The notes beneath the pieces were generated by a model. That model was not told the DNA's origin. It did not search any database and worked only from the letters and a program-made list of their open reading frames with translations. A stretch of 64,000 nt of DNA, from the IMG/VR virus record IMGVR_UViG_3300010885_020237, positions 29,678 to 93,677 of that record; one strand, written 5' to 3'. The stretch is from a virus. Shown one piece after another: positions 2,541-43,888 of the stretch (positions are counted from its first letter, which is position 1; every line of letters starts with the position of its first letter). The position numbers and the translations under genes are program-made.

Positions 2541-3206
2541 TTAGGTGTAGTTCCATTTATATCCTCCTGATATTCTATTGTTTTTGATAGCCACGTGAAT
2601 ATTAGAATTGTTTACACCGATAAAATCTGCAGCTTTTTTTAGCGATTGAAATGTACTAATTATCTCCATCGTATCTTTATTAAGCATATTCACACTTTTT
2701 ATATTATGAGCAAGTTTTCCGACTTTAGATTCTCTTAATCTTCTTATACCGTCTTCTGTCATATTATGAGGTTTTCTTAGTTTCTGTTTTTGTTCCTCTG
2801 TTCTTTTTTGACCTTTAACAGCTAAGCCTACTTTTGCAGCATGTTCTTTACTTTTTTTCTTTCCTTTTAACGCTTTAGATATTGCTTTAGAGTGAGCTAG
2901 TCTGGCTTCTTCATAACATCTTGAAGATATTATAATCCAATGTTCTTTAGGCGTTGATCCTCTACCATTACACATTCTCCAAAAAGAAAAAGCTCTAGAT
3001 TGAATATTTTCATCTAATCTATATAAAAGCCAATGCGCAATAAAATGCTCTCTTGCTGTTAATCTAACTATATTTTCTTCAATATCTAACCCATTTTCTG
3101 ATTTAGGCTTTATATGATGCCTTTCGAAGTAAGGTAAAGTTTTATATTCTCTATTTTTAGCTTTATCAATTAGGTTATCGTAATGTTTTCTGTAATCCAC
3201 TTTCAT
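2541..3206 (-). CDS. HNH homing endonuclease with NUMOD modules
   Basis: Free-standing mobile endonuclease that would cut an allele lacking it and copy itself by repair. The HNH core lies at residues ~25-60: FERHHIKPKS, then the Asn-containing ENIVRLTAREHFIAHWLL. Two NUMOD3-like DNA-contact repeats follow (SKAISKALKGKKKS and HAAKVGLAVKGQKRTEEQ, ~108-145). The C-terminal NUMOD1-like helix-turn-helix (TFQSLKKAADFIGVNNSNI, ~186-215) ends in GGYKW. It sits directly downstream of the DNA polymerase gene. The ATG begins immediately after an ATATTTATT copy. The reading frame is intact. Confidence 0.9.
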   Translation of the reverse strand: MKVDYRKHYDNLIDKAKNREYKTLPYFERHHIKPKSENGLDIEENIVRLTAREHFIAHWLLYRLDENIQSRAFSFWRMCNGRGSTPKEHWIIISSRCYEEARLAHSKAISKALKGKKKSKEHAAKVGLAVKGQKRTEEQKQKLRKPHNMTEDGIRRLRESKVGKLAHNIKSVNMLNKDTMEIISTFQSLKKAADFIGVNNSNIHVAIKNNRISGGYKWNYT

Positions 3207-3241: not shown

Positions 3242-5554
3242 CTAATGTCCTTCAAGCCAGTTTTTGGCTAAAGATGGTACAGCAATTAATGGGACGTCCA
3301 ATTTGGTTGTATTCTCCATTTTATCCTGTATAATAGCTGCGGCTTCTGCTGCTCTTTCATATTCTACTTCTATGATTAACTGATCGTGGATTTGCGCGCA
3401 GACCCAACCTTTAATGCCTTTTGCGATAAACTCTCTATTTATATGTATAGCTGCTCTATTTACTATAGATGCAGCTAAACCTTGTATTTGTACATTACAG
3501 CTATTATTTAGTCCATTTTTATAGTCTCTATATAATTTAGTTATTTGATCTTCTCCAAATTCATAAGATAGTTGTTTTTTTATATTCCAATCTAATAAAG
3601 AATCCCCTAATTCAGCATATATTTCTTTTACTTTAGGCAAGTGTCTTATTCTACCTACTTGAGTTTTTATATAACCAAATTCTTTTACATATTTAACTGA
3701 ATTCTCCATCCATTTTTTTAATTTTGGAAATCCATTTAAATAACCGTCTACTAATTTTTTAGCATCTTTAGTAGGAATATCTAAATTTTTACCTAAAGCA
3801 TACGGTGACATTCCATAAGGAATACCTAGAGCATAGGCTTTTGCTTTATTTCTAATTTTTGGTTTGTGTTTTCTTAAAAAATTATCAGCTTTTTTATCTG
3901 GAGAATAGTCGTATAATTTTTCTGTTTGAATAGCTATTGTACAATAGAAATCCCATCCATTTTTAAAGATATCGATTAATCCTATATCACCTGAGACATG
4001 TGCAAATACACTCGGCTCTAGAGAAGAGTAATCATCATCGACAAATATATTGTGTTCATCAGGAATAAAAAATGCTCTAACTCTATTATTATACTCTAAT
4101 ACAATTGGATCATCATCGCCTTCTTCTTTTGGTCTAGGTAACTGTTGAGCATCAGATCCGTAGCGGCCAGAAACTGTACCATGTTGTTTGTAACTAAAAT
4201 AGTAACGGCCATCTTCTTGAGCGTCTAAGAATCTTTCCACATAAGTAGATTTAATCTTTAATAATTTATTATAGATTCTTAAGTTTCTTGCCCATTCTTC
4301 TGTATCTCCAATTAATTGGATCATGTCATCATCAAATTGTGGCTTTCCACCTTTTGTAGTAGATAATGCTTTTATGCCCAAAGCTTTGAATGCAATTTCA
4401 CCTAATTGATCTTTAGACTGTATGTTAAACCAATTACCGTCATTAGATTCTTTCCATAGTTTTAATTGTATTTTTACAATTTGATCCTTATCAAGCATTT
4501 GAGCATCACCGTGAAGTAAGAACTGTTTTACTGCGCTATCTGGGATTCTTAAAATATTTGCATTAGCTATATTGTACTTACCACTTTTCTCTGACTTTGG
4601 AAAGTCTATACCGCTTTGATTGATTAATTCTATGGCAAATGTTCCTCTATTGTTTGCGGGGAATTCCTGCGCCGCTTTTAACATGATCCAGTTCTTTACT
4701 TCAGCGTAACTAAGTAACTGATCCATAACCTTAGTTCTGTGATCCTCTAGAGCTTGTGTAACTTCTTCTTTTGTTCTACGAATAAGATCCATATCCAATT
4801 TAACACCTATACTTTCCATTGGAATGGTTACCTCTTTGTAAAGTGGCATTACTTCATCTTCAAAAAAGAAGGCTTCTAATCCCTGATCGTAAAGGTCTTT
4901 TATAAAGTGATTGTATACTCTAAGTGTTAAATCTGTATCTGCTGCAGCATATTCGGCTAATATGTTAATATCAGCTTTCCATATCTCGTAATTTTCTCTT
5001 GTAACAGAACCACCATTTTCTTTGATCGATGATTTTAGCGCAAGCTGCTCTTCATTGGCAGCTTTTTCTATATCAAGTCCAAGTTCTGTTTGAATCATTT
5101 TAGCAATACTTTTTAATCCAAATGGAGAATTGGATCCAAATCCAGCTCCTTCTTCATTTACAGTATGAACTAATAACATTGTATCAGCGTGTAAGGAATC
5201 TAACAAATCAATGCCGTAAAAACACTTAATAAATCTGCCATCGAAAGAAAAATTATGAGCGATTAATTTTTTACCATGAAGTAAATTAAGTATTTTTTTA
5301 GCTATATCATGACATGATACGCCGTCTACAGTATTTTCTATAAGAGAATTTGATTCTTTATCATATAATAGTGTAGGCAAATAATATCCATAGCCCTCTA
5401 TTGCTGATATAGACAGACCTATTATTTTTCCTTTTCTAGGATTTAAACTGTTAGTTTCAGTGTCTATTGATATTATGTCATAACTTTTTATATGGTCAAC
5501 TAGATTTTTGATATCTTCTTTTGTTGAAACATGTACATACTTTTTATTTATCAT
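3242..5554 (-). CDS. polA: DNA polymerase I, family A, with 3'-5' exonuclease
   Basis: Presumed replicative polymerase with proofreading. The exonuclease domain shows Exo I DTET (31-34), Exo II HNFSFD (100-105) and Exo III YAAAD (202-206). The polymerase shows SGRYGSDAQQLP (462-473), motif A DYSSLEP (catalytic D508, E513), motif B with R568, K572, Y580, and motif C HDQ (H723, D724). There is no N-terminal 5'-nuclease domain; that activity is in the separate gene at 11135-12163. Two motif residues are unusual: Leu576 at the position of E. coli Phe762, and Gln725 where HDE is usual. The gene is flanked on both sides by homing endonucleases, and the GIY-YIG stop overlaps its start by 11 nt. It replaces the family B polymerase expected in a T4-like phage. 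Confidence 0.96.
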   Translation of the reverse strand: MINKKYVHVSTKEDIKNLVDHIKSYDIISIDTETNSLNPRKGKIIGLSISAIEGYGYYLPTLLYDKESNSLIENTVDGVSCHDIAKKILNLLHGKKLIAHNFSFDGRFIKCFYGIDLLDSLHADTMLLVHTVNEEGAGFGSNSPFGLKSIAKMIQTELGLDIEKAANEEQLALKSSIKENGGSVTRENYEIWKADINILAEYAAADTDLTLRVYNHFIKDLYDQGLEAFFFEDEVMPLYKEVTIPMESIGVKLDMDLIRRTKEEVTQALEDHRTKVMDQLLSYAEVKNWIMLKAAQEFPANNRGTFAIELINQSGIDFPKSEKSGKYNIANANILRIPDSAVKQFLLHGDAQMLDKDQIVKIQLKLWKESNDGNWFNIQSKDQLGEIAFKALGIKALSTTKGGKPQFDDDMIQLIGDTEEWARNLRIYNKLLKIKSTYVERFLDAQEDGRYYFSYKQHGTVSGRYGSDAQQLPRPKEEGDDDPIVLEYNNRVRAFFIPDEHNIFVDDDYSSLEPSVFAHVSGDIGLIDIFKNGWDFYCTIAIQTEKLYDYSPDKKADNFLRKHKPKIRNKAKAYALGIPYGMSPYALGKNLDIPTKDAKKLVDGYLNGFPKLKKWMENSVKYVKEFGYIKTQVGRIRHLPKVKEIYAELGDSLLDWNIKKQLSYEFGEDQITKLYRDYKNGLNNSCNVQIQGLAASIVNRAAIHINREFIAKGIKGWVCAQIHDQLIIEVEYERAAEAAAIIQDKMENTTKLDVPLIAVPSLAKNWLEGH

Positions 5555-6188
5555 AAATGAATTTTACCTTTATTTTATTTTTATTCCACGTAGAAATTGT
5601 AGCTGACGATCTATTAAAAAATTCAGCTGCATCTTGTATAGTTAAGAAAACAGTGCCAGATTCTATACACAGTACTTTTTGCGCTCTACCATTAGAGGAT
5701 CCTGATATCTTTTTGGATTGAGTGATCTTTCTTTCATTAGTCCATAAATCCTGAAATTTTTTCTTATAATCAGCTGTTGCATATTTTATTTTTAATTTAT
5801 CGCCTAATTCACGAGCGATTTTTTTATCTTTCATAGGATTATGAAATCTCATAAATTGTGATTGTTCTGGTCTTTTTTTACCAAACATTATACATTTGTC
5901 TCCCGATCCAGATCCACTTGCTGATGCACATTGCATTGAGTAATATGGCTTTTTAAAAAGTTTATCCAATAAAAGCTGCTCTTGTAAATACGCCTCTTCT
6001 CTAGTTGCATATTCATTTAATATTTCGTATTCAAACATATTATATTTTAAATACGCTCTTTGCATTATAGAATTTCCATGTGTACCTTTAGTTAATTCTC
6101 GAAAATGATCTTTCATTCTCCTTTTTAAATTATTAGTAGATCCAATTTGTTTCCATGGACCTATTTTAATTTGATATACTACATTCAT
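5544..6188 (-). CDS. GIY-YIG homing endonuclease (copy 1)
   Basis: Site-specific mobile nuclease. I start at the ATG of MNVVYQIKIG (6188); the in-frame TTG at 6206 lies inside an RNA helix and is unlikely. The N-terminal catalytic module is diverged: VVYQIKIG then KQIGSTNNLKRRMKDH, where Gln replaces the Tyr of YIG but the R and H of the family are present, and the Glu of EEAYLQEQ follows. NUMOD3-like NPMKDKK is central, and a NUMOD1-like HTH (LTIQDAAEFFNRSSATI) is C-terminal. The stop overlaps the polA start by 11 nt, so translation may be coupled. A structured RNA lies 12 nt upstream. Confidence 0.85.
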   Translation of the reverse strand: MNVVYQIKIGPWKQIGSTNNLKRRMKDHFRELTKGTHGNSIMQRAYLKYNMFEYEILNEYATREEAYLQEQLLLDKLFKKPYYSMQCASASGSGSGDKCIMFGKKRPEQSQFMRFHNPMKDKKIARELGDKLKIKYATADYKKKFQDLWTNERKITQSKKISGSSNGRAQKVLCIESGTVFLTIQDAAEFFNRSSATISTWNKNKIKVKFIYDK

Positions 6189-6199
6189 AAAATAAAAAT

Positions 6200-6289
6200 G
6201 GTTCAAAAAAACAAAGGAGCTCTAACCTTCCTAAGTTTAAATGAACCAATAAGTTTATAACAGATAACTAGTTAGAGTAGTTTCTATCC
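6200..6289 (-). ncRNA. kissing-loop RNA element A, leader of GIY-YIG copy 1
   Basis: Read on the minus strand. Hairpin 1 has an outer helix GGAUA/UAUCU (plus 6285-6289 with 6262-6266), a GAAA-type asymmetric bulge, and an inner helix ACUA/UAGU closing the 7-nt loop CUCUAAC (6271-6277). Hairpin 2 is GGUUCA/UGAACC (6242-6247 with 6200-6205), and its large loop contains GUUAGAG (6220-6226), the exact complement of the hairpin 1 loop. Element B at 13820-13911 has the same order of helices with different bases in the inner helix, hairpin 2 and kissing helix, so the fold is supported by compensatory change. It ends 12 nt before the GIY-YIG start. I match it to no named family. It may control translation of the nuclease or be a mobile RNA partner. 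Confidence 0.72.
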
Positions 6290-9725: not shown

Positions 9726-11120
9726 TTACTTTGATAGTTCGAAGAATTTTTTATGAAGATAATCTTTCTCATCAGAACTAAATGCAGCTTTATTTTGCAT
9801 CTGTGTTCTAGGTGGTCCATTCTGATTATTTCCATTATCAAAGGTAAGATCATCTTCCTCCATTTCATCTTTATTGATGTCTATCGCACCATTACTAGTA
9901 TTCACCTTTGCTGCATAAGTCATCCCATCTGATCCATATCTATTCTTCATGATATGTATACGTCCTGTTCCATTGACTTTGTCCTGACGCTTCCTAGACA
10001 GCGACATTGCAAAATCTGCTATCATCATCTTATTATAAGATCCTGCTGCTTTATCACCTTCAATTACATCGTCTTTTGCGCCCATTCTATTTACTTGCGA
10101 TACTGTCCATACAGGTACTTTTAATTCTCTAGCCATACCTTTAACAGCGCTATATATATCGTCAATCGCATCTTTTGGATCAATAGAGCGAGTTTTACTT
10201 TTTAATAGATCTACGTAATCAATAATTACAATGTCTGGAGCAGATCCTAAATCTCTACACTTTTGGATATGGGCTTCAATAGTATTGACTCCTGCTTTAC
10301 CCATAGGAAATTCTTTAATAATTAATTTTCCTTTTAGCTTTTCTATCGCAGAATTAACTTTGTCTTTATGCAAGTGTAATTGTTGAGCATCGATTCCAGT
10401 AAATAAAGCATCATATCTTTTACCAACATAGTCTTCTGAAAGTTCTAGAGTGTAATGCGCGACATTAAATCCTGCAACTACTGCTTGTGCGCCTAAGTTT
10501 ACAAGCATCCATGATTTACCTCCACCTGGGTTTCCAAATATTAAACCAAGATCACCGATTCCTAATCCTCCCATTAATAGATCATTAATATTTCCCCATG
10601 GAGTTGGTACAGCTGATCTTTGTTCTTGTCTATATCTAGTCTCGATATCTTTTTCGTATTCGTGACCTATACTTTTATTTTGTCCAGCTTTGGATGCTAC
10701 GTTAATAATGTGTCTAATGTCTTCCCATTCTCCTTTCTCTAACAATTTAACAGATTCTAAAATAGCATTTTTTAATTGTTGATTCTGACAAAAGTTTGCG
10801 AATTCTTGTTCTACGTATTCCTTATCTTCATTAGTTGCTTTTAGTGCTTCTTTTAATTGCTCTATTACGCTAACTTTTAAAATATCATTATCAATCTTTT
10901 TTACTTCTACTTGAAGAGATTCTGGAGAAGGTGTCGTATGATACTTGTAATAATAACGTAGTACTTCTGCAACAATCCATTTATGTGATGGTGAATCAAA
11001 CATCTCTGTGTTTAACACATCATTCATATTTTGTAAGAATTCTTTGTGCTTAAGTAAACTAGATAAAACTTTTATTTGAAATCCAGTTCCGTAACTCTGT
11101 AACGATCCTAATACTGCCAT
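9726..11120 (-). CDS. replicative DNA helicase, DnaB/T4 gp41 family
   Basis: Hexameric 5'-3' helicase that unwinds the fork. An N-terminal helical domain (~1-165) is followed by the RecA-like motor: Walker A GNPGGGKSW at 196-204, Walker B DIVIIDYVDLL at about 295-305, the sensor region WTVSQVNR, and the arginine-finger region KNRYGSDG. The C-terminus is acidic then Gln/Asn-rich. The 464-residue length matches gp41/DnaB helicases. It is 14 nt downstream of the RNase H gene in a helicase-RNase H-uvsX-SSB block. I see no primase gene in the window. Confidence 0.94.
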   Translation of the reverse strand: MAVLGSLQSYGTGFQIKVLSSLLKHKEFLQNMNDVLNTEMFDSPSHKWIVAEVLRYYYKYHTTPSPESLQVEVKKIDNDILKVSVIEQLKEALKATNEDKEYVEQEFANFCQNQQLKNAILESVKLLEKGEWEDIRHIINVASKAGQNKSIGHEYEKDIETRYRQEQRSAVPTPWGNINDLLMGGLGIGDLGLIFGNPGGGKSWMLVNLGAQAVVAGFNVAHYTLELSEDYVGKRYDALFTGIDAQQLHLHKDKVNSAIEKLKGKLIIKEFPMGKAGVNTIEAHIQKCRDLGSAPDIVIIDYVDLLKSKTRSIDPKDAIDDIYSAVKGMARELKVPVWTVSQVNRMGAKDDVIEGDKAAGSYNKMMIADFAMSLSRKRQDKVNGTGRIHIMKNRYGSDGMTYAAKVNTSNGAIDINKDEMEEDDLTFDNGNNQNGPPRTQMQNKAAFSSDEKDYLHKKFFELSK

Positions 11121-11134
11121 AACTTATTTTATTT

Positions 11135-12163
11135 TTAACGATACTTGCTTAATTGATTGAACTTTTCAAACAGCCATATTTGTAAATTGTTTATACTTTT
11201 TCCAAGATCATCTTCTTCATAGAACTCAGCGAATTCTTTTGGTCTAAATGTCTTAGTGGGATTCTCTAGCACGTATTCTATTTCTAATAATGAATCCTCT
11301 GGTATATTTGGATTTTTTAAATCCATTAATTGTTCATTGATCCTTAACTGATGTTCGAAGTTAGCAATACTTTCGTATGCTTTTCCAGTTCCAGTTTGTG
11401 CTTTCTCTAGTACTTCATCTAATGTAGCTACTTCATTATTAGCAAATTCAGGGTATAATTTAGTAACTGTTTTAATTCCTAATCCTTTAATGCCAGGTAC
11501 GTTATCTCCACTGTCTCCTAACAATACTTCTTGATTTAAGAAGTTTTGAGGCGTTACTCCGTACTCTTCTAATACCTGCTTGTATTGATAGAATTTTTTC
11601 TTGATAGGAGAATATACTGTAACTTTTTCATTCACGAGCTGTAAATAGTCTCGGTCGCTAGATACAATTGTAACTTCTCCATTTAATTTACCAGTTATAT
11701 AACCAATAACATCATCAGCTTCAATTTTGTCTATTGATAAAAGATCTACTGGTAAGCATTTTAGGTAATCTATTAACCTCAATATTTGATTTGTAATAGA
11801 TTCTGCTTCCTGCTCTTGATCATCGAATAAATCCCAATTGGTCACTCTACGATAACCTCTATTGGCTTTATATTCTGGATATAAGTACCTTTTATTTGTA
11901 GATCCTCCTTGGCCATCGAACACTAATATTACTCTAGTGGGTCGAATAAGATTGATGGCGTATCCCAATGATTTGAGATAGCCCGTCAATCCACCGATAT
12001 GTACACCGTGTTTATTAACATGATTGATGATAGTAAAAGATCTTATAAAAGCATTTAATGAATCTATGATTAAGACTCTGTCATTTAACTTTAAAGGCTC
12101 TTCTTTTGCCGATTCTTCAACTGTGTTGAGAGACTCTAACATTTGTTTATATCTATCTTCCAA
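11135..12163 (-). CDS. 5'-3' exonuclease / RNase H (flap nuclease family)
   Basis: Removes RNA primers and flaps during lagging-strand maturation, like T4 RNase H, and supplies the 5'-nuclease that this phage's PolA lacks. The acidic metal-site motifs occur in order: LIIDSLNAF, LVFDGQGG, KIEADDVIGY, VSSDRDYLQL and LGDSGDNVPGIKGLG. The last is the helix-hairpin-helix DNA-binding element with its two aspartates. The 342-residue length fits the family. It is 2 nt downstream of uvsX, so the two are probably translated from one message. Confidence 0.94.
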   Translation of the reverse strand: MEDRYKQMLESLNTVEESAKEEPLKLNDRVLIIDSLNAFIRSFTIINHVNKHGVHIGGLTGYLKSLGYAINLIRPTRVILVFDGQGGSTNKRYLYPEYKANRGYRRVTNWDLFDDQEQEAESITNQILRLIDYLKCLPVDLLSIDKIEADDVIGYITGKLNGEVTIVSSDRDYLQLVNEKVTVYSPIKKKFYQYKQVLEEYGVTPQNFLNQEVLLGDSGDNVPGIKGLGIKTVTKLYPEFANNEVATLDEVLEKAQTGTGKAYESIANFEHQLRINEQLMDLKNPNIPEDSLLEIEYVLENPTKTFRPKEFAEFYEEDDLGKSINNLQIWLFEKFNQLSKYR

Positions 12164-12165
12164 TG

Positions 12166-13233
12166 TTATTCGTTTTCTGATGTATCGAAAATGTCTTTTG
12201 CGTCTGTGTCTTGTTCTTCAACAATATCAAAGTCTGCTGATCCAAGTACTTGTAACCACTGATGAGAGTACTGCTTCTTATATTTTTCTAACGCAGAAGG
12301 TTTATCATCAATAAATCCATGAACTGTCATGATTAATTTATTCGCAGCAGTAACTCCTGTGATGTGATTCTTATCGCAAGAAAGTTTAGTTCTTTTAGCA
12401 AATTCAACATCTTTGCCATTTTTGCTGGCTTTGATTTTATTAGTCCCGGAATTTGTAACATTTCCAAAAGTAATAATAAGCGATGAATCAAAAAACATTG
12501 TGTCACCTCCTTTATTCTTCATCTTTGGTTGACCCATAATATGTTCAGCTTTTGCAACCCAAACTTTATTGATCGCTACAAGAGTGTTTGTATAAGGTTG
12601 ACTCTCCTTTCTTGACATTACAATCTTTTGATTAACAAAATTACCGAACTGTTGAGACATTGCACCGGCATTCCATTCGTTGTTATTCGTAGATTTTTCT
12701 ATTGACATCTTACATGGAATAGATCCAACAGAATCCCAAAAGAAACATAGGTCATAAGGTAAATTTCCTTTCTTTTGTTCGTCTAAAATGTCTAATACAA
12801 AAGCAGATACATCTTCAATACAATTTAATTTCTCTCTATCGATGTATACAAAGAATCCTGTGTAGTCATTAACTACTCCATCAGCATCTGCAACTTCATC
12901 AAATTTAAGTCCCATTTCTCTAGCGTGGTCCCAACTCCATTTCATCTCTGTGATAATGAATACTGGTAATATGCCCATCTTTTGAGCATTAACAGCAGCT
13001 TCTAATAGTGCAGTTGTTTTACCTGTATCAGAATGACCTCTTAAAAGAGTAATGTGACCAACTGGAATTCCAGGAATTTGAAGAGCGTCTTGAAATGCTG
13101 GAGATAGTGGTATCCATGAAGCGTCTTTAAATTTTACAGATGTCGAAGATAAGTTCTTTGATTTTTTAAATTTGTCTAAACTAAATTCAGACTTGATGGC
13201 ACTTGATATTTTGCCAGTGAGTGCTTTCGCCAT
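12166..13233 (-). CDS. uvsX: UvsX-like RecA recombinase
   Basis: Strand-exchange protein for recombination-dependent replication and repair. Walker A GHSDTGKTT is at 66-74, Walker B-like LCFFWDSVGS near 163-172, and the L2-like region and NKGGDTMFFDSSLI follow. The acidic C-terminus (EEQDTDAKDIFDTSENE) resembles the regulatory tails of RecA/UvsX proteins. The 355-residue length fits. It lies between a GIY-YIG gene (14 nt upstream) and RNase H. Confidence 0.93.
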   Translation of the reverse strand: MAKALTGKISSAIKSEFSLDKFKKSKNLSSTSVKFKDASWIPLSPAFQDALQIPGIPVGHITLLRGHSDTGKTTALLEAAVNAQKMGILPVFIITEMKWSWDHAREMGLKFDEVADADGVVNDYTGFFVYIDREKLNCIEDVSAFVLDILDEQKKGNLPYDLCFFWDSVGSIPCKMSIEKSTNNNEWNAGAMSQQFGNFVNQKIVMSRKESQPYTNTLVAINKVWVAKAEHIMGQPKMKNKGGDTMFFDSSLIITFGNVTNSGTNKIKASKNGKDVEFAKRTKLSCDKNHITGVTAANKLIMTVHGFIDDKPSALEKYKKQYSHQWLQVLGSADFDIVEEQDTDAKDIFDTSENE

Positions 13234-13247
13234 AACTAAATTTTTAT

Positions 13248-13808
13248 TTAATGTAATGCTTTATTTTTTCTTGAAGAAGGGTTTTTTTGCGGTCCTCTTG
13301 GGCCTCTCATTTTTTGCTTCGTTTCTTCTGTGTGAGCATTTCCTATATGCGCTTTAGACATATTTAATTTAGATTGTTCGGTATGAATTCTGCCTTTATG
13401 TTTTTCAGAAATTTTTAAACGAGTTTCTTTTGAACAAGGCGGATATTTTTTGCCTTTATTTCCGGAGCCGCTATTATTTCCTTTTGCTGATAGACGCATT
13501 TTATTTTTTGATTCGTTAGAAAAAATAAAATTAATCATGCCTTCTCCTCCGTCTGTAAGATTTACTAGAGAACCGGTTCCGATATTTTGTCTGCCTAGAC
13601 TTTTAATAAGTTCGATTTCTATTATTCCAGAATCTTCCCAAGACAAATCTTCATAAAGAATATCAATAAAATAGCCTACTTTATTAACTATATTATGCCA
13701 ATGTACATTTCTATCAGCTCTTGAAAATGCTCTTTTTAAAGTTTTTCCTCTACCTATGTAGAAAATTTCATTTGTGTCTTTTCTTCTATGCTGATATATT
13801 ATAGCCAT
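13248..13808 (-). CDS. GIY-YIG homing endonuclease (copy 2)
   Basis: Mobile nuclease. The catalytic module is near canonical: IIYQHRR, FYIGRG, KRAFSRADR, then EDLSWEDSGIIEIELI carrying a Glu. Three NUMOD3-like basic repeats follow (NESKNKMRLSAKGNNSG, KETRLKISEKHKG, EQSKLNMSKAHIG). The first two-thirds closely resembles copy 3 at 27667-28245, so they belong to one subfamily distinct from copy 1. It lies 14 nt before uvsX. It has structured RNA B as its leader, 11 nt before the ATG. Confidence 0.9.
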   Translation of the reverse strand: MAIIYQHRRKDTNEIFYIGRGKTLKRAFSRADRNVHWHNIVNKVGYFIDILYEDLSWEDSGIIEIELIKSLGRQNIGTGSLVNLTDGGEGMINFIFSNESKNKMRLSAKGNNSGSGNKGKKYPPCSKETRLKISEKHKGRIHTEQSKLNMSKAHIGNAHTEETKQKMRGPRGPQKNPSSRKNKALH

Positions 13809-13933: not shown

Positions 13934-14755
13934 TTAAAATGAAAACAATTCATCGATTTTGGAATCGAGATCTGTTTTCGTCGTACTTAATGTGAATGGT
14001 TTCGCAGCTGGTGCTTCTTTCTCCCATGGTAAATCTCCAATAGGATCAGTTTTTACTACAACTGAATCAGCATTTTGCTTGATCTCTTCTTCAGGATTTA
14101 AGTGCGACATTAATGCGCTTTTCATCTCTTCATAAGTGTAACGTTTAAACTGAGTCATTGGATCTGGTTGAGTAGTCAACCACTGTTTAACTTTTGCAGC
14201 ATCATCAGATAGAGGAGTAATTTTAGTTCTTACTCTTACGCTAGACGTGTTGTACGATAAACCAGTCGTTTCTTTTCCTTGTACATCAATAGTGATATCA
14301 CGACCTTCAATGGGATCTGTGAAATCTCCTACGTCCTCATCTTCAGCTAATGCTAACAAATCCATGTAGACTTGTTTACCAAACCCCCATAAAAGAACGC
14401 CTTTGTCTTCTTCGCCTCTAACGATAACTGGTACATAGATTCTCATCTTTGGTTCCAATTTTTTAGCTAGCTGCCAATCTTCTTTAACTGAAGACTTTCT
14501 TAGTCCTTGAGAAAACTCAACGATAGGATCTTTTTCGCCATAATTTGACAAAGAGATCATGGTGTTTTTATTTCCAATTCCATAATGGAAATAAAGCTCC
14601 TTAAAAGGATTGCTTTTTGTGTACATCGAAGGTACAATACGAACTAAATGTTTACCCACTGTTGGGCCCCAAAGCGTTTTTGCCAGTTCGCCTTTCTGGC
14701 CGCCTCTTGGATTTTGTAACGTAGCGAGTCTTTGCTTTAATGCAGATATATCCAT
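13934..14755 (-). CDS. gp32: single-stranded DNA-binding protein, T4 gp32-like
   Basis: Coats ssDNA and coordinates replication and recombination proteins. A basic N-terminal segment (LKQRLATLQNPRGGQK) resembles the gp32 cooperativity region, a core OB-fold-like domain with WGPTVGKHLVRIVPS and YFHYGIG follows, and the tail is acidic, ending in TKTDLDSKIDELFSF, as expected for the partner-binding C-terminus. The 273-residue length is near T4 gp32 (301). I do not see the full Cys/His zinc cluster of T4 gp32. Its neighbours are uvsX and the helicase. The leader carries a perfect inverted repeat (14781-14798), which recalls gp32 autogenous control. Confidence 0.88.
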   Translation of the reverse strand: MDISALKQRLATLQNPRGGQKGELAKTLWGPTVGKHLVRIVPSMYTKSNPFKELYFHYGIGNKNTMISLSNYGEKDPIVEFSQGLRKSSVKEDWQLAKKLEPKMRIYVPVIVRGEEDKGVLLWGFGKQVYMDLLALAEDEDVGDFTDPIEGRDITIDVQGKETTGLSYNTSSVRVRTKITPLSDDAAKVKQWLTTQPDPMTQFKRYTYEEMKSALMSHLNPEEEIKQNADSVVVKTDPIGDLPWEKEAPAAKPFTLSTTKTDLDSKIDELFSF

Positions 14756-14819: not shown

Positions 14820-15248
14820 TTAGACGTTAACTATTCTATGAATAGACGTGTTGAGTTTTCTTAGATCTTCTCCTTGAGTCAGTAAAATTGAATTCTTGTA
14901 ATCAGGCCAATTGATAGCAAACTTTGTATCTAATACACCTCCATTTAGAGATTTGATCAAAGTGTTTAAGGCATTAATTGTATATAAGGTATTTGAGTCC
15001 TTTTTTCTGTGTAAAAGAATAGTATTGTGTAATATCTTAGTACTACCACCTTCAAGTTCAATATTATAAGTGCACATGTATTCTTGAGAATCGGGTGATT
15101 CTAATACAAATATTTTTCTGTACATTATTTTGTACTCCTTATTTATCTCTTGTAGCCTATCTTCTAGATTATCCTTAGTAGCAAAGCTACAAAATAACTT
15201 GTTCATTAGCGATTCTTGTGTTAATTCGAGTGTCTTGAAATCCTGCAT
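14820..15248 (-). CDS. hypothetical protein, 142 aa
   Basis: Soluble protein of unknown function with no signal or membrane segment. It is mixed alpha/beta in appearance: an N-terminal helix (TLELTQESLMNKLF), a middle beta-rich part (MYRKIFVLESPDSQEY, TKILHNTILLHRK) and a helical end. It lies between the degenerate polymerase-like gene and the SSB gene, in the replication block. The leader holds an ATATTTATA copy 10 nt before the ATG. Confidence 0.65.
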   Translation of the reverse strand: MQDFKTLELTQESLMNKLFCSFATKDNLEDRLQEINKEYKIMYRKIFVLESPDSQEYMCTYNIELEGGSTKILHNTILLHRKKDSNTLYTINALNTLIKSLNGGVLDTKFAINWPDYKNSILLTQGEDLRKLNTSIHRIVNV

Positions 15249-15278: not shown

Positions 15279-16580
15279 TTAAAATGAATAATTAATGCCA
15301 TACTTGTGTTTTACCACTAAGTTTTCTCCTTCCATTATTTCTTTTATTTTTATTAGAAGTTCTTTTCCATCTTGTATATCGAAGTCGAATAAGAAAGCAT
15401 CATAGGTGATTAATACAAGCTTCGTCCTTAGCTTATTGTCATCAAGGTATTGGTTTATACGCTCTATTTTATCTACGTTGACCAGAGTCTCCATATTCTG
15501 CACCATGTAATTAAATAGCTTAAGCTTGTTCATCTCATTTGAGAATTTAAGAATGCTATTAGTAGGTAATGCGATTGCACCTTGTCTTTTGTAGGTTTCC
15601 CATAAATCAGTGATATAAGAGTCTAGTAACGCAAAAAACTTGATGTGAGTGTATTTTTTATTTACTCCTCCGTATAACTGTCTAAAAGTAATTGTTTTTG
15701 CCTCAACATATTCATTTTCAGTAAGGGTGTCTTTACCGAAGTATTGTTTACCAAGAAAGGTATGTATTGATTCTTTTCCCCAATCGTAACCAATTAATGT
15801 TCCAATTAATCTTAAGTGATAAGCTTCAAAATCGAATTCTACAAAATAGGTATTTTTCGGTATAAAGCAGTCTCTAAAATCATTATCTTTTGGTATCGCA
15901 AGGAAATTAATGCTATTAAATGAATTTGTTGGTCGACCAGTTAGATTATAAAGATTATAATAAGAATAGATAAGATCATTAATTTTAGAACTTGATTCTA
16001 TGGTTAATTGGTATTTAGTTTTAAATTTTACCTCATCAATTCTTATTGGATTCTGCTCTACACTTTTATAAGCTGATACCAATCTATTTTGAAATTTAGT
16101 GTCTGACTCTAAACCAAAAAATGCTTTAACAATATCATATAAACATTGGCATCTTTCGTAATGTTTAGATATTGGTATTATCTCATTTACATTTGCTAGA
16201 TTAGAAAATCTAGAGTAGTAATTGTGTTGTAATAAGCTTTCACATTCGAATGGACTATAGTTATTGGTTTGATCTAAATAGATAAAATTTATATCTATAC
16301 TATTAGGCAGGTCTAAAAAATAGGAGTGATACTTTTTATCTATTAAGAATATGGTCTTATGTTTAGATAAGAACTGTTCTACCGACTTTATATCGAGAGA
16401 AAAAGATTCAGAGTGTTTGAAAGGGAATATATAGCCTTTTACACCGTTATTATAATATAATAGGCTGGGATATGATAGTTTTGGGTGGAATTTATCATTA
16501 CCTGAAATCAATTGTACAAAGCATTCTTCGCCTGCTTGCATTTGATTTAACTGATCTAACGTTTCTACTATAAAATACAT
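15279..16580 (-). CDS. divergent family A DNA polymerase-like protein
   Basis: 433 residues without a recognisable exonuclease domain. The C-terminal half follows the PolA palm/fingers order: TGRPTNSFNSINFLAIP (214-230, compare TGR...LQNIP), motif A-like FVEFDFEAYHLRL (D250; the usual Glu five positions later is His255), motif B-like EAKTITFRQLYGG (K295, F299, Y303) and motif C-like ITYDAFLFDFD (D394; His-Asp-Glu is Tyr-Asp-Ala). Both metal-binding aspartates are therefore in place, but three supporting residues have changed. The N-terminal 200 residues match nothing I know. It coexists with a full PolA at 3242-5554. It may be an active specialised polymerase, a terminal transferase or a non-catalytic accessory. 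Confidence 0.72.
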   Translation of the reverse strand: MYFIVETLDQLNQMQAGEECFVQLISGNDKFHPKLSYPSLLYYNNGVKGYIFPFKHSESFSLDIKSVEQFLSKHKTIFLIDKKYHSYFLDLPNSIDINFIYLDQTNNYSPFECESLLQHNYYSRFSNLANVNEIIPISKHYERCQCLYDIVKAFFGLESDTKFQNRLVSAYKSVEQNPIRIDEVKFKTKYQLTIESSSKINDLIYSYYNLYNLTGRPTNSFNSINFLAIPKDNDFRDCFIPKNTYFVEFDFEAYHLRLIGTLIGYDWGKESIHTFLGKQYFGKDTLTENEYVEAKTITFRQLYGGVNKKYTHIKFFALLDSYITDLWETYKRQGAIALPTNSILKFSNEMNKLKLFNYMVQNMETLVNVDKIERINQYLDDNKLRTKLVLITYDAFLFDFDIQDGKELLIKIKEIMEGENLVVKHKYGINYSF

Positions 16581-16638
16581 TATTTATAACCTTTATTAGA
16601 TCAAATATACAATAAGATATTGACAATATAAGGTTGAT

Positions 16639-17271
16639 CTATTCAGTAGGGCGAGAGAATTTAGAATAGTCTCCACCGATATAGTCAATAAGACCGAAGA
16701 AATTTGCATTTGCCGCCATAATTAATCTTTGGTTCGTATCTATTATGCCGGCTCTTGTGTCGTATTGATTTATTCTTTTTGAATTCAATGAGCCAGTTAA
16801 TTTCCATCTTATTTTTACAGTTTGTAATAATGATGTATCATATCCAGCAGTACCATTAGTAATTTGTAAATAATCTAATGGCGATATTTCAGTGATATAT
16901 CCATTTTCATTTATTTTTTTCATGAAATATCTATCTATATAACCAAGATCGTAATCGCTCTGTATTGGTTTTGGAAAATATCCGCTAGGAAATTTTGATT
17001 GATTAGATACTATCTTTGTTACATTCGCTAATTGCTGTTTAAGAGCTTGAGGAGCTTTCATATTAGAAAGTCCAGCTATAGATACATTAGCTACAGATAC
17101 CGGCTCTAAAAATTCATTAGATCCTACTATAGGATTTGCTCCAGCAAAAGAACTACCTTCTGATGTGGTATAATAAAGTCCAACATACGGAATTCCATTT
17201 AATCGAAAAGAACCACCTTTTGTAATTTGATTTGTTTTTACTTTAAAAGATGGATAGTATCTTACTGGCAT
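16639..17271 (-). CDS. hypothetical protein, probable baseplate component, 210 aa
   Basis: Beta-rich protein with no signal peptide (MPVRYYPSFKVKTNQ, GIPYVGLYYTTSEG) and a C-terminus NANFFGLIDYIGGDYSKFSRPTE. I recognise no domain. It is 2 nt from the 1482-aa baseplate/peptidase gene in a tightly packed run with the gp53-like gene, so a virion baseplate role is inferred from position only. Confidence 0.65.
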   Translation of the reverse strand: MPVRYYPSFKVKTNQITKGGSFRLNGIPYVGLYYTTSEGSSFAGANPIVGSNEFLEPVSVANVSIAGLSNMKAPQALKQQLANVTKIVSNQSKFPSGYFPKPIQSDYDLGYIDRYFMKKINENGYITEISPLDYLQITNGTAGYDTSLLQTVKIRWKLTGSLNSKRINQYDTRAGIIDTNQRLIMAANANFFGLIDYIGGDYSKFSRPTE

Positions 17272-27666: not shown

Positions 27667-28245
27667 CTAGTTTATTTGTGTTTTTAATAATTTCGTTACG
27701 TAAGCTTTAGATTTATTTAAATATTTTGCTAAAGCCGTCTGTGATTCAAATTCAATTTTGTCGTATACAACCTTTAATCTTTTTGGACTAGCTTTATCTT
27801 TCCAATATCCTGGTTTTCCATAAAGAGGATTTAATTCTCCAACTCTACCAAAACAAGGATTTTTTTCTCCTTTAGAAGCCAAACTCTTTTTTCTTTTTGA
27901 CTCTTCAGTGTGAATTTGATTTTTAGCGGCTAATCTACATTTGTCTTTAGTTTCTTTTGTGTGTCTAAATCCAACTGTTCCTTCTCCACCATCAGTCAAA
28001 TTAACCAATGTTCCAAGTCGTAAATCTCGTCTACCGTAAAGAGCTATAAATTCTTTTTCTTTTTCTTTTGCTTGTTCCCAAGTTAAGTCTTCAAATAGAA
28101 TTTCAATTTCGTAACCTTTTGCGGCGATATTCTTCCAGATTCTAGTTCGATTTGTTTTATGATATGCTCTAGATTCGCTTTCTCCTATTCCTATATAAAA
28201 AACCTCTTGTTTGTCCGTTCTTATGTGTCTGTATAATATTGCCAA
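27667..28245 (-). CDS. GIY-YIG homing endonuclease (copy 3)
   Basis: Same subfamily as copy 2: AILYRHIR, FYIGIGESESRAYHKTNRTR, EDLTWEQAKEKEKEFIALYG, LVNLTDGGEGT, then NUMOD3-like repeats (HTEESKRKKSLASKGEKN, LNPLYGKPGYWKD) and a C-terminal HTH (FESQTALAKYLNKSKAYV). It is inserted in the late sheath-tube region, 6 nt before the tube gene. Unlike copies 1 and 2 it has no structured RNA upstream; only a few bases separate it from the ATATTTATA motif. Confidence 0.9.
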   Translation of the reverse strand: MAILYRHIRTDKQEVFYIGIGESESRAYHKTNRTRIWKNIAAKGYEIEILFEDLTWEQAKEKEKEFIALYGRRDLRLGTLVNLTDGGEGTVGFRHTKETKDKCRLAAKNQIHTEESKRKKSLASKGEKNPCFGRVGELNPLYGKPGYWKDKASPKRLKVVYDKIEFESQTALAKYLNKSKAYVTKLLKTQIN

Positions 28246-28851: not shown

Positions 28852-30888
28852 TTATTGAGCAAAAGTTGCTCCAGTTGGCATTATGTTGAAATCTAATTGG
28901 ATAAATTCTGCTACTCTTGTAGGCTGTAAGTAAATACTTCCAACTAAGATATTTCTATCTATTGTATCAGGAGTGTTGTTAGATTCATCCATGATAACTT
29001 GGAAAGCATAAAGACCTTGTCTTTGTTGAACTGATTCTAAGTAAGGATTAACTTGAGTTAAGAATTTATTTCTTGTTACTTGAGTATTAGGTTCGAATAC
29101 TAGAGTCTGTCCAATTTGACCAATGTATCTCTTAAGGGAGATTAATAGTCTTCTAACGTTTACTCTGTCTAGAGCTGATGGTTTAGCTTGTAAGGTTTTT
29201 TGACCGTAGATTACTGTACCAACTCCAGCGAATGTAGCAATTGGGTTAACTTTTGCTGCGTATAAAGTATTTCTATCATTGATAGATAATCTTCTTTCTG
29301 GTTGTAATACTGTAGAAAGACCTCCTCTATTTAAACCTGCTGGTGCAAACCATTCTGCAGATACTTTATCATTGTATTCGTATACTGATGGAACGATAGT
29401 TGAAGCTGGAATAAAATTCATTCTGCCAGTTTCGCTAGATCTTATTTGAATCCAAGGCCAATAAGTGGCTCCATAAGAGTTATCAAATGAAATCGCTGCG
29501 TCAGTAACTGTTCCGATATTATTTTGATATCCAACTAAATCTATTACTGCGATATTATCACCTCTAGTTGAAGCTAATTGCAATAAGTTGTTTACTTGCG
29601 AATTTGCGTTTTTACTAGTCAATCCTGGAGCATATACTACATTAAAGTCGTATTGATCTTTATTACCTAAAATGCTAATTGCAGTATTGTAATCAGGTCC
29701 GTAAATTCCTTGAATGTTAGTTGTTGGAGTTGCGTACGCAGATGTTGTATTTGGAATATTCTCAAACATGTTTAAAGAAGCTGAATTGAACGATCCATAG
29801 AATTGTCCAGTTGCTCCGCTAAATCCACCATTTAATGAACCAGATCCAACTAAAGGCATAGAGCCAGTAAATTGGGTTTGAGGTGTACCAGTTTGTGAGA
29901 AATAGTTAGGAGTTGGTAAAAATACATTGCTAACGTATACGTAATTTGATTTATTCGTATAGCTACCAGTATTTTGTATATAGTATGTTCCTGAAGTTGA
30001 ATCATATCCTACATTTTGGAATTGATCTCCAATAACATAAGATATATAATTATTTTGATTTGGATCCAAAGACAAGTTAGTCCATGATTCTAATATAGTT
30101 TTGCTATTTTCATAGTCATCTCCTCTTCTAATATTCAATGAGAATAAACCAGATCCAGAAGCAGAAGATACAATTTCGTATCTAACATTTGCTGAAGATC
30201 CTGAAGGTAACGCGCCTGATACAGTTGATCCAGTTGCATTATTCATTACTGTACCTACAGATAAAGTAGATAGTGAAAATGCTTGTGAATTTGTACCATT
30301 ACCATAGAATACAGTAGTAGATCCTGATGTGTAATAATAAGAGTTTCCAGTAACACCAATTGTTTTAGCAGTAACTACTAATGAAGGTGTAGCAAATGAT
30401 GCAGTACTATTTATAATAGTGTTAGCATTTATAGATGCTGTTGCATTATTATAAACGTCTTGTGCTGAAGATCCAGAGATAAGTACATTCACTCCATTAA
30501 AGCTAGCAGAATAAGCAGTTGTAACTGCACTGGTTAGATTTAAGGACGCAGATGCGTAAGTTAATCCAATATTACTTAATACACTAGCATTTGCTACTGT
30601 ATAAGATCCAGAAGCTACTCTTGTAATCAATAAAGATTGACCTCCTTGATTAAAATAGTTGAATGCTGCGATACTAGTTAAATACTCTTGAGTAATACCT
30701 CCAGAAACGAAGGTAGCACCAAATGTGGCTTTGTATTCAGAGTAAGAAGTAACTACGGTTGGTATATTAACTGGTCCTATTACGGTTGGTCCTAATAAAG
30801 CTGCTCCTGCAGCAATTGGTCCTTGTGTTATTTGACTCTTGTCGTTCTCTGTTAGGAAAACGCCGGGACTAATGATTGTTTCGGCCAT
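28852..30888 (-). CDS. gp18: contractile tail sheath protein, gp18-like
   Basis: 678 residues (T4 gp18 is 659). The N-terminus ISPGVFLTENDKSQITQGPI and GAALLGPTVIGPVNIPTVVT is the conserved sheath start. The middle is Ser/Thr/Gly-rich, the variable surface insertion. The C-terminal third is conserved: WPWIQIRSSETGRMNFIPAS, then KVNPIATFAGVGTVIYGQKT, then RRLLISLKRYIGQIGQTLVF. It forms the contracting outer tube. It heads the sheath - 184 aa - GIY-YIG - tube gene run that ends at the terminator near 27.13 kb. Confidence 0.95.
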   Translation of the reverse strand: MAETIISPGVFLTENDKSQITQGPIAAGAALLGPTVIGPVNIPTVVTSYSEYKATFGATFVSGGITQEYLTSIAAFNYFNQGGQSLLITRVASGSYTVANASVLSNIGLTYASASLNLTSAVTTAYSASFNGVNVLISGSSAQDVYNNATASINANTIINSTASFATPSLVVTAKTIGVTGNSYYYTSGSTTVFYGNGTNSQAFSLSTLSVGTVMNNATGSTVSGALPSGSSANVRYEIVSSASGSGLFSLNIRRGDDYENSKTILESWTNLSLDPNQNNYISYVIGDQFQNVGYDSTSGTYYIQNTGSYTNKSNYVYVSNVFLPTPNYFSQTGTPQTQFTGSMPLVGSGSLNGGFSGATGQFYGSFNSASLNMFENIPNTTSAYATPTTNIQGIYGPDYNTAISILGNKDQYDFNVVYAPGLTSKNANSQVNNLLQLASTRGDNIAVIDLVGYQNNIGTVTDAAISFDNSYGATYWPWIQIRSSETGRMNFIPASTIVPSVYEYNDKVSAEWFAPAGLNRGGLSTVLQPERRLSINDRNTLYAAKVNPIATFAGVGTVIYGQKTLQAKPSALDRVNVRRLLISLKRYIGQIGQTLVFEPNTQVTRNKFLTQVNPYLESVQQRQGLYAFQVIMDESNNTPDTIDRNILVGSIYLQPTRVAEFIQLDFNIMPTGATFAQ

Positions 30889-42090: not shown

Positions 42091-42297
42091 CTAGCGCCTT
42101 AATCCAAATTTAATATATTTATACCACGTTCTTTCATGTAGATAATATACAAATGGTTTAATTAATAATTCTGCTAAACTAAACGTAGCGCTCATCTTAA
42201 TGCTTCCCGTGCTCACCCATATGATTAAAAATCCAATCAATGTACTAATCAGTCTATAACTTATAGTCTTAGCCAGGTGTCTCTTATGCTGTACCAT
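42091..42297 (-). CDS. DUF2061 membrane protein, 68 aa
   Basis: I start at MVQHKRHLAKTISYRLISTL. The family pattern is clear: an N-terminal basic helix (KRHLAKTISYRL), a membrane segment (ISTLIGFLIIWVSTGS), a second hydrophobic helix (ATFSLAELLIKPFVYYL), and the signature LHERTWYKYIKFG. The function of DUF2061 is unknown. Its start lies inside the end of the nucleotidyltransferase gene (14-nt overlap), so it is translated as part of the kinase-sulfotransferase cassette and may be its membrane partner. Confidence 0.82.
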   Translation of the reverse strand: MVQHKRHLAKTISYRLISTLIGFLIIWVSTGSIKMSATFSLAELLIKPFVYYLHERTWYKYIKFGLRR

Positions 42298-42622
42298 TGC
42301 GTATTGATGTTCCGCTGATGCTAATAATATCAGCAGGAGGTTCATGATAGATTACTTCGTATCCAACTCCTCTACCATAGTTTACTGATTCTATGTCAGG
42401 GATGATAGAAATAAATAGTTTTCCAGTATGTAATAGATCCAATAACTCTATTTTTAATTCATCAAGTACTTGGTGCGCAGTCTTTGGATTATTCTCGTCT
42501 TGTTCAACGTCTCTAATGGCTAGCCAGACATTTTTACCCCTATTTAATTGTTGATCAATCAACCATCTGTGGCCTTTGTGCCATGTTTGCCATCTTCCGA
42601 TGAATAATGCGTATTTTTTCAT
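42284..42622 (-). CDS. HxGH nucleotidyltransferase, 112 aa
   Basis: Cytidylyltransferase-like superfamily enzyme transferring a nucleotide. The HxGH motif is at TWHKGHRWLI (~residues 14-23), the middle has AIRDVEQDENNPKTAHQ and DIESVNYGRGVGYEV, and the C-terminal ISGTSIRNG corresponds to the ISSTxxR motif. The length (112) is minimal for the fold. It overlaps the kinase start by 4 nt (ATGA) and the DUF2061 start by 14 nt. Small enzymes of this pattern accompany APS-kinase-like genes in marine phages and bacteria as I recall. It might make the substrate of the kinase, but it lacks the size of an ATP sulfurylase, and the substrate is unknown. Confidence 0.8.
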   Translation of the reverse strand: MKKYALFIGRWQTWHKGHRWLIDQQLNRGKNVWLAIRDVEQDENNPKTAHQVLDELKIELLDLLHTGKLFISIIPDIESVNYGRGVGYEVIYHEPPADIISISGTSIRNGTA

Positions 42623-43059
42623 AAACTAAGTTGTTTAATAAGTTTTTTATAAGATTCAAATTCAGTATCATTAGTGGTATCTATGTCAATAAAATCCTCT
42701 GTTGGTTTCTCATAATCAGAAACATGATACTGCGTTCTTCCTCTATCAATAAAAGCGTGAACGTATACTTCTTTAATATTGTCGCCAAACTTTTCTTTAA
42801 ATTTGTCCCTTTGATCTTTATAGGGAGATACTAAAGCCACACATACATTGTGCCCTTTGTCATGTAAAAAATGGGCTAAGTTTTGGGCTAACTCTACATT
42901 CTTTCTTCTTCCAGTTTCGCTATAATCTTTATTGCTAAATATTTTTCTAATGTCATCTCCATCAATTAGTACTGGTTTTTTAAGATGTAGATGAGTTACT
43001 AAATGATTTGCTAAGGTTGTTTTTCCTGCACCTGGTTGGCCTGTAAACCAATATATCAT
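42619..43059 (-). CDS. cysC: adenylylsulfate kinase-like protein (CysC family)
   Basis: P-loop kinase that in the known family phosphorylates APS to PAPS, the universal sulfate donor. I start at MIYWFTGQPGAGKTTLANHL (146 aa); a longer frame would run into the sulfotransferase gene. P-loop GQPGAGKTT is at 6-14, then LIDGDDIRKIF, DYSETGRRKNVELAQ and VALVSPYKDQRDKFKEKF follow the CysC order. It is shorter than E. coli CysC (201 aa). It is 7 nt downstream of the sulfotransferase and overlaps the nucleotidyltransferase by 4 nt. A different sugar- or nucleoside-phosphate substrate cannot be excluded. Confidence 0.85.
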   Translation of the reverse strand: MIYWFTGQPGAGKTTLANHLVTHLHLKKPVLIDGDDIRKIFSNKDYSETGRRKNVELAQNLAHFLHDKGHNVCVALVSPYKDQRDKFKEKFGDNIKEVYVHAFIDRGRTQYHVSDYEKPTEDFIDIDTTNDTEFESYKKLIKQLSL

Positions 43060-43066
43060 AAGCTGT

Positions 43067-43888
43067 TTATTTACTGTATCCGAAGCTATCGAAATACCAT
43101 TTAAAATTAATATATATCCACTCGTATGTATAATCTCCCAAGATGTCCCTAGAGTCATTGGCCAGCGCTTGTACTCTGTTTCTAATGGTATGATCGCCAT
43201 ATATTCCATGAACGCTGTCGTCTTCTATTGTGATCTGTTCTACACGATTAAAGTCATGCTTGTATTCAGGTAATTCAAAATATTCATAGATGCTTTTAAC
43301 TACTGCTTCTGGGTTAGTGCAGAGATCTTCGTATCTTAAGAATAAGAACTTTGACGCTGTTCCATCTAACATTGATTGATTCAGCTTTGGTATAGCATGT
43401 CCTATTGGATGGGTTGTTGCCCATTTCTCTACTCGCTGCTGAGTAGTTAATCCTGTTAGATTCATGTTATCTAGAGTTCCATCTTCAATATCAGGGTTTG
43501 CTCTAAATTTCTTTTCCATTGATGCAAAGATATCCCTTAAATCCCTTACTAAAAATAGGATTTTAGGTTTCTCAAACATGTTTATCAGTAATGGATAAGT
43601 AGCTCCCCAATTTCTGTTCTTGTCTAAGATGTAGGGTTTGTCTGTTAGATGGGCGGTGTAGCCTTCTAATCCTGATTTACAGAAAGCATAGAATCCTTCT
43701 TTCCATTGATTCTTATCTCCTGCTTTTGATTCGTGGTTTCCATTATATCCGATCCTTGCTCCTAGCATAAGATCGATCATTCCCGACGTTGGTGTAACGT
43801 GAAATGATGGGTTTTGGCCCATTATGTTTTGTAGTAGTGTCGATCCTGCTCTTGGTAGAGAGGATTGATAGAATATTGTTTGTTTCAT
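43067..43888 (-). CDS. PAPS-dependent sulfotransferase
   Basis: Transfers sulfate from PAPS to a hydroxyl or amine on a glycan, lipid or protein. 5'-phosphosulfate loop: SSLPRAGSTLLQNIM at ~9-23. 3'-phosphate motif: LVRDLRDIFASMEKKF near 112-127. LRYEDLCTNPEAVVKSIYEY near 186-205 is typical of the family C-terminal half. There is no signal peptide, so it acts in the cytoplasm. It heads the cassette with the PAPS-forming kinase, which supports the activity. The acceptor is unknown; phage fibres or host surface glycans are plausible. Confidence 0.88.
   Translation of the reverse strand: MKQTIFYQSSLPRAGSTLLQNIMGQNPSFHVTPTSGMIDLMLGARIGYNGNHESKAGDKNQWKEGFYAFCKSGLEGYTAHLTDKPYILDKNRNWGATYPLLINMFEKPKILFLVRDLRDIFASMEKKFRANPDIEDGTLDNMNLTGLTTQQRVEKWATTHPIGHAIPKLNQSMLDGTASKFLFLRYEDLCTNPEAVVKSIYEYFELPEYKHDFNRVEQITIEDDSVHGIYGDHTIRNRVQALANDSRDILGDYTYEWIYINFKWYFDSFGYSK

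Follow-up and report, generated by a model that had tools for sequence, protein, structure and literature searches.

Among described enzymes, the closest in fold to the protein considered here are the large fragments of bacterial DNA polymerase I, of which the Klenow fragment contacts the sugar and phosphates of the incoming nucleotide through E710 and R754. The single-subunit RNA polymerases of the T7 type are distant relatives in fold, with a residue other than Glu at the steric-gate position of motif A. In family A enzymes E710 is the gate that excludes ribonucleotides (PMC9324360). Among isolated phages, Flavobacterium phage vB_FspM_immuto has two genes, gp001 and gp199, that are both annotated as 'DNA polymerase family A', and the literature that we searched reports no function for gp001.

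We have analysed a stretch of 64,000 nucleotides (the window), positions 29,678 to 93,677 of IMG/VR virus record IMGVR_UViG_3300010885_020237, which encodes two proteins related to these enzymes, referred to here as PolA1 and PolA2 (Table 1). The preliminary description of this DNA had proposed a two-PolA phage, with a complete PolA at 3.2-5.5 kb and a 433-residue second protein that keeps the PolA motifs in order. Both genes are present, PolA1 being complete with its exonuclease domain, and the expected series of motifs in PolA2 is recovered (T214-x-R216, D250, H255, K295, F299, Y303 and Y393-D394-A395); the PolA2 reading frame is to be read on the minus strand, stop codons being abundant on the plus strand across the same interval.

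PolA2 matches the Pfam family DNA_pol_A (PF00476) with E=4.6e-6 and 26.3 bits, which lies under the curated gathering cut-off of 34.3 bits; its homologue in immuto, at 43.9 bits, lies over it. A profile built from 50 PolA2 relatives matches the Klenow fragment (E=1.5e-5), and profile-profile comparison (hhalign) with eight canonical PolAs gives P=98.7% and E=1.5e-16, aligning PolA2 residues 197-420 with residues 648-908 of E. coli Pol I and pairing D250 with D705, H255 with E710, K295 with K758, F299 with F762, Y303 with Y766, Y393 with H881 and D394 with D882. An AlphaFold2 model computed from 50 natural relatives has a pLDDT of 95.0 and a pTM of 0.92, with every segment well modelled, and its best fold matches are DNA polymerase I large fragments: residues 1-433 align with residues 321-905 of M. 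smegmatis Pol I (Z 27.7, 399 residues, 3.7 Å; Foldseek, VIA-align), the match to the Bacillus large fragment (Bst Pol I) has a Z of 27.6 over 409 residues, and the TM score to Klenow is 0.73. The model thus contains a palm domain, predicted at high confidence, and its motifs fall on the active site of PolA; the proposed kinship survives this comparison, and profile and model together place PolA2 firmly among the relatives of DNA polymerase I. The two catalytic aspartates are retained, and an intact nucleotidyl-transfer site set in a Pol I palm and fingers is strongly predicted.

The thumb subdomain, on the same evidence of alignment and model, is strongly predicted to be absent. At the site of the Pol I thumb, only about 38 residues lie between E175 (Pol I E541) and T214, nothing in PolA2 corresponds to E. 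coli residues 556-577 and 587-649, and the model places helices of seven and four residues in this link instead of the long helix pair. The fingers are also shortened, E. coli residues 774-789 being without counterpart. At the other end of the chain, the earlier remark that no exonuclease is visible holds for the catalytic residues but not for the domain, since residues 1-135 are predicted to keep an exonuclease-domain fold. The proofreading set of Pol I (D355, E357, D424, D501) is not found in PolA2, and the equivalents of E357 and D424 are non-acidic in 16 of 16 PolA2 representatives, with the caveat that the alignment of this domain is uncertain at single residues; PolA2 has no match to Pfam DNA_pol_A_exo1. 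The exonuclease domain of the Bst large fragment is likewise inactive. Four other residues of the vestigial domain, H56 and E58 (as H-x-E), K83 and D96 (window positions 16290-16415), are essentially invariant in PolA2, which suggests that the domain has been given a new task.

Table 1. Positions of the features discussed, in coordinates of the window.
Feature	Position	Strand	Basis
PolA1, complete replicative-type PolA with 3'-5' exonuclease	3242..5554	-	PF00476 E=3.1e-66; PF01612 E=5.6e-11
DnaB-type replicative helicase	9726..11120	-	PF03796 E=1.6e-20
5'-3' exonuclease	11135..12163	-	PF02739 E=6.2e-30
UvsX/RecA-like recombinase	12166..13233	-	PF00154 E=1.2e-6
gp32-like single-strand DNA-binding protein	13934..14755	-	PF08804 E=5.8e-13
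Orf142, constant small partner gene, 142 aa, no known family	14820..15248	-	linkage to PolA2 in all evaluable loci
PolA2, family A-like polymerase (predicted thumbless, exonuclease-dead), 433 aa	15279..16580	-	ORF, Pfam, conservation, fold, hhalign
PolA2 motif C, Y393 D394 A395 (Pol I H881 D882 E883)	15396..15404	-	Y393 and D394 in 145/145
PolA2 motif B / O helix, Y291 (R754) K295 (K758) F299 (F762) Y303 (Y766) G304	15669..15710	-	conservation, hhalign
PolA2 motif A, D250 (Pol I D705) to H255 (Pol I E710, steric gate)	15816..15833	-	D250 and H255 in 146/146
PolA2 short link in place of the Pol I thumb, residues 175-214	15939..16058	-	alignment and AlphaFold2 model
PolA2 predicted vestigial 3'-5' exonuclease-fold domain, residues 1-135	16176..16580	-	whole chain aligned to Pol I large fragments from residue 300 on
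Start-proximal element AAAGGTTAT	16586..16594	-	AAAGGTT conservation in relatives
Candidate promoter -7-like element TATATTTG	16602..16609	-	consensus match
orf210, upstream neighbour, adjoins large tail/baseplate-region genes	16639..17271	-	directly upstream of PolA2 in most loci

Conservation was assessed across 146 distinct PolA2 relatives, one of them a fragment that lacks the D394 column, so that motif C is counted in 145. Ten residues (D250, H255, Y291, K295, F299, Y303, Q361, E364, T365 and N368) are kept in all 146, Y393 and D394 in every sequence with letters there, and G304 in 128 of 146; position 395 is Ala or Ser. The features of family A that are present are therefore the two catalytic aspartates of motifs A and C and, in the O helix, the Lys, the F/Y/L position at 762, the Tyr and the Gly. 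The signature of the PolA2 family relative to Pol I consists of three changes, E710 to His, R754 to Tyr and H881 to Tyr; every comparison PolA has Glu at the first of these positions. Ten further members, of a deeper marine branch, retain D250, H255, K295 and D394, and a marine outlier (L372) is the sole exception at the R754 position, with Arg in place of Tyr291. The equivalents of the catalytic aspartates, K758, F762, Y766, N845 and Q849 hardly vary among more than 150 sequences whose identity falls to about 25%, and dN/dS across 52 pairs has a median of 0.071 and a maximum of 0.103. PolA2 is under strong purifying selection with an invariant catalytic set, and decay is excluded. The preliminary description had argued from the surviving aspartates against simple decay, correctly as it turns out, and its own term 'degenerate' does not fit in that sense. 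Its reading of HDE to YDA in motif C as a sign of degeneration also fails, since loss of the Glu is common among ordinary phage PolAs, which carry HDS, HDA or HDQ, and the Tt72 polymerase is active with Ser at the E883 position (PMC9324360). For the same reason we reject the motif C change (YDS or YDA) as a mark of RNA polymerase-like character.

In a tree built by maximum likelihood from the palm and fingers, with phage PolAs included, PolA2 separates from PolA1, each group being monophyletic with 100/100 support; a long separate stem leads to PolA2, which makes its exact placement unsure. Its occurrence does not follow that of complete PolAs. Microcystis phage Mel-JY01 and the 484-kb genome LR756508 encode PolA2 with a PolB replicase and no complete PolA, and among ten contigs of 140-216 kb PolA2 is present in all ten, a full PolA in six and PolB in four, the last two never together. 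At least 584 stretches in IMG/VR match PolA2, and clear relatives were found in 6 of 50,697 phage records and in 1 of 84,980 species genomes. The single relative among the species genomes (CALMEO010000055.1) lies on a 104.6-kb contig of a metagenome bin and probably represents a phage contig binned with a bacterium. A scan of IMG/VR with the LR756508 protein, using six patterns, returned no relatives.

The gene immediately downstream of PolA2, Orf142, is its constant companion. A search of the 50,697 phage records with Orf142 gave exactly six matches, the same six that encode a full-length PolA2, and both genes are present in all ten of the 140-216 kb contigs. Of the loci collected with PolA2, 176 also contain Orf142 and the rest are contig ends or a duplicate fragment; conversely, of 80 loci collected with Orf142, 78 contain PolA2 and the other two are incomplete. 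In 20 loci of a marine branch PolA2 lies further upstream, with 2-3 kb between the genes, and apparent exceptions to the linkage are explained by contig ends or by inserted genes. In the marine branch with PolB-type relatives the intervening gene encodes about 700 residues (directly upstream of Orf142 in loci L395, L420, L442 and L444), and at another locus (L366:1-1808) repeat-rich genes with SLPDNLKVGGxLYL units precede Orf142 before the contig ends. A functional pairing of the two proteins would rest on this linkage, and the marine insertion calls for caution in proposing it. AlphaFold2 predicts Orf142 to be a small alpha/beta protein (pLDDT 88.9); comparison with Pfam, PHROG, NCBIfam and PDB sequences gave nothing above noise, and the best fold match, to the origin-binding domain of SV40/JCV T-antigen (Z 5.7 over 73 residues), is under the level of kinship.

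These genes belong to a conserved series, orf210 - PolA2 - Orf142 - gp32 - UvsX - 5'-3' exonuclease - DnaB. PADLOC gave no match that would indicate a defence function. ORFs resembling HNH or GIY-YIG proteins, named from their sequences, occur on the minus strand at 2541-3206, 5544-6206, 13248-13808 and 27667-28245, between replication and tail genes and in one case between gp32 and UvsX; they are probably homing endonucleases. Elsewhere, near the tail-fibre genes, ORFs read by eye as sulfotransferase-, adenylylsulfate-kinase- and nucleotidyltransferase-like lie together at 42284-43888 (minus strand).

Of 43 relatives, 31 have the motif AAAGGTT ahead of PolA2, where chance would give 0.5, and TATATT clusters near -25 in relatives. 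The window's version, AAAGGTTAT, occurs there only once; the conserved element lies some 7 or 14 bases ahead of the start codon, and in immuto it also stands 7 bases before three other genes. It may serve these phages in translation or as part of a promoter. Six relatives have a terminator-like hairpin between PolA2 and the tail genes, and the hairpin and the AAAGGTT element together suggest that PolA2 opens a transcription unit of recombination and replication genes. The count of the T4-type late promoter TATAAATA in the window is not above chance.

On balance we think it probable that PolA2 represents an old, functional, PolA-derived subfamily of accessory polymerases in a T4-like aquatic phage lineage, an activity that we infer from sequence and predicted structure. 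Such an enzyme would still transfer nucleotides, without proofreading; having no thumb it would be distributive and confined to short stretches or short-patch synthesis, with Orf142, gp32 or both supplying the grip on DNA. It may act in recombination or repair synthesis, for example in gap filling or in the first extension of joints made by UvsX, rather than in bulk replication, the one pointer to this role being the gene neighbourhood. The fixed replacements of E710 and R754 imply altered substrate handling, the direction of which they do not fix, and because both residues are important to Pol I when it binds nucleotides, PolA2 may catalyse poorly or have lost activity altogether. The strongest rival to an active enzyme, and one that we regard as doubtful but serious, is that PolA2 is a catalytically silent scaffold, its Pol I fold serving as a platform for binding DNA or proteins (as a loader or mediator for gp32, UvsX or the helicase, for example) and its aspartates having structural or metal-binding parts. 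The replacement of H881 as well as of E710 and R754, the loss of the thumb, the hint of a new binding surface in the invariant residues of the vestigial exonuclease domain, and the small partner that linkage makes appear obligate all fit this reading, for which there is a precedent in the inactivated polymerase modules retained by Pol epsilon (PMC2669801). It has difficulty, however, with the near-invariance of the aspartates and of the K758, F762, Y766, N845 and Q849 equivalents in all those sequences. Dead polymerases usually lose their catalytic residues. That PolA2 arose as a copy of the PolA that the phage already had and is now decaying has practically no credence left: the protein is short, scores under the Pfam cut-off and has lost its exonuclease residues, but the reading is refuted by selection, by conservation, by the separate clade and by the presence of PolA2 in PolB phages that have no full PolA, the last two of which also dispose of a recent copy of PolA1.

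If PolA2 is an active polymerase, its substrate may be unusual. With the steric-gate Glu replaced by His in every PolA2, it might make or extend RNA, as primers or as RNA patches, which we consider improbable: His is bulky and may still exclude the 2'-OH, F762 of the gate is retained, the likeness of motif C to that of single-subunit RNA polymerases extends to ordinary phage PolAs, and no primase is missing from the complete PolA2 genomes. The earlier suggestion of a primer-type polymerase, taken as a stand-in for a missing primase, is unlikely, as is PolA2 as sole primase, because the three complete PolA2 genomes of immuto, Mel-JY01 and LR756508 have DnaG/Toprim matches indicating a DnaG-type primase. 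Among the large contigs, Toprim_2 is found in 6 of 6 of the PolA1 type and in 0 of 4 of the PolB type, whose primase may be too divergent for Pfam; no DnaG-type primase was found in the window's own record, a 93.7-kb fragment. Quite improbable, in our view, is a translesion enzyme with an open, exonuclease-less active site that copies past damage in phages of sunlit waters. The absent proofreading residues and thumb and the shortened fingers would suit it, but PolA2 has no lesion-specific insert or Y-family trait, and its presence beside two unrelated replicases bespeaks a constant task while leaving the type of task undefined. A regulatory role, the other option raised in the preliminary description, is likewise conceivable but speculative. 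The reading of PolA2 as an active accessory polymerase also has a bolder form, which we hold to be unlikely, in which PolA2 and Orf142 would make up a two-subunit polymerase of novel design, a thumbless Pol I core with its DNA grip provided in trans and a His gate admitting substrates beyond ordinary dNTPs (such as NTPs or the end of an RNA), for a core step in the replication of T4-like phages that does not depend on the replicase they carry.

In a widespread lineage of aquatic phages, PolA2 belongs to the core genes. That the replicase is swapped between families A and B while PolA2 and Orf142 stay suggests that some step of replication or repair is constant throughout and has so far escaped notice. 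Surveys that use polA as a marker should allow for two polA genes, widely different from each other, in a single phage, and a natural thumbless polymerase with His fixed at the steric gate would offer a test of how far Pol I can be pared down without loss of catalysis.

In the literature searched, with most subscription papers outside its scope, we found no paper on a second polymerase of the PolA2 type. By sequence and model PolA2 is homologous to the family A polymerases and departs from them in the canonical steric-gate Glu, the O-helix Arg and the thumb. With the large fragments of Klenow, Bst and M. smegmatis Pol I it shares the fold of the whole chain and palm motifs A, B and C, but it differs from them in the absent thumb and part of the fingers and in His, Tyr and Tyr for E710, R754 and H881. 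The canonical phage PolAs (T7 gp5, that of Staphylococcus phage PSU5, and PolA1) have a homologous palm and fingers, and several have lost E883 (HDS or HDQ), but they keep E710, R754, H881, the thumb and the exonuclease residues and form a separate clade; the Tt72 polymerase similarly keeps the E710 equivalent, a thumb and strong proofreading (PMC9324360). The single-subunit RNA polymerases are not among the best fold matches of PolA2. The nearest system is that of immuto, whose gp001 (YP_010114413.1) is an orthologue of PolA2 (36% identity over 99%) with all of the signature residues, in the same gene order, followed by the Orf142 homologue gp002 and accompanied by a second, complete PolA, gp199. 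The two-PolA arrangement is already present, unremarked, in this isolated Flavobacterium phage.
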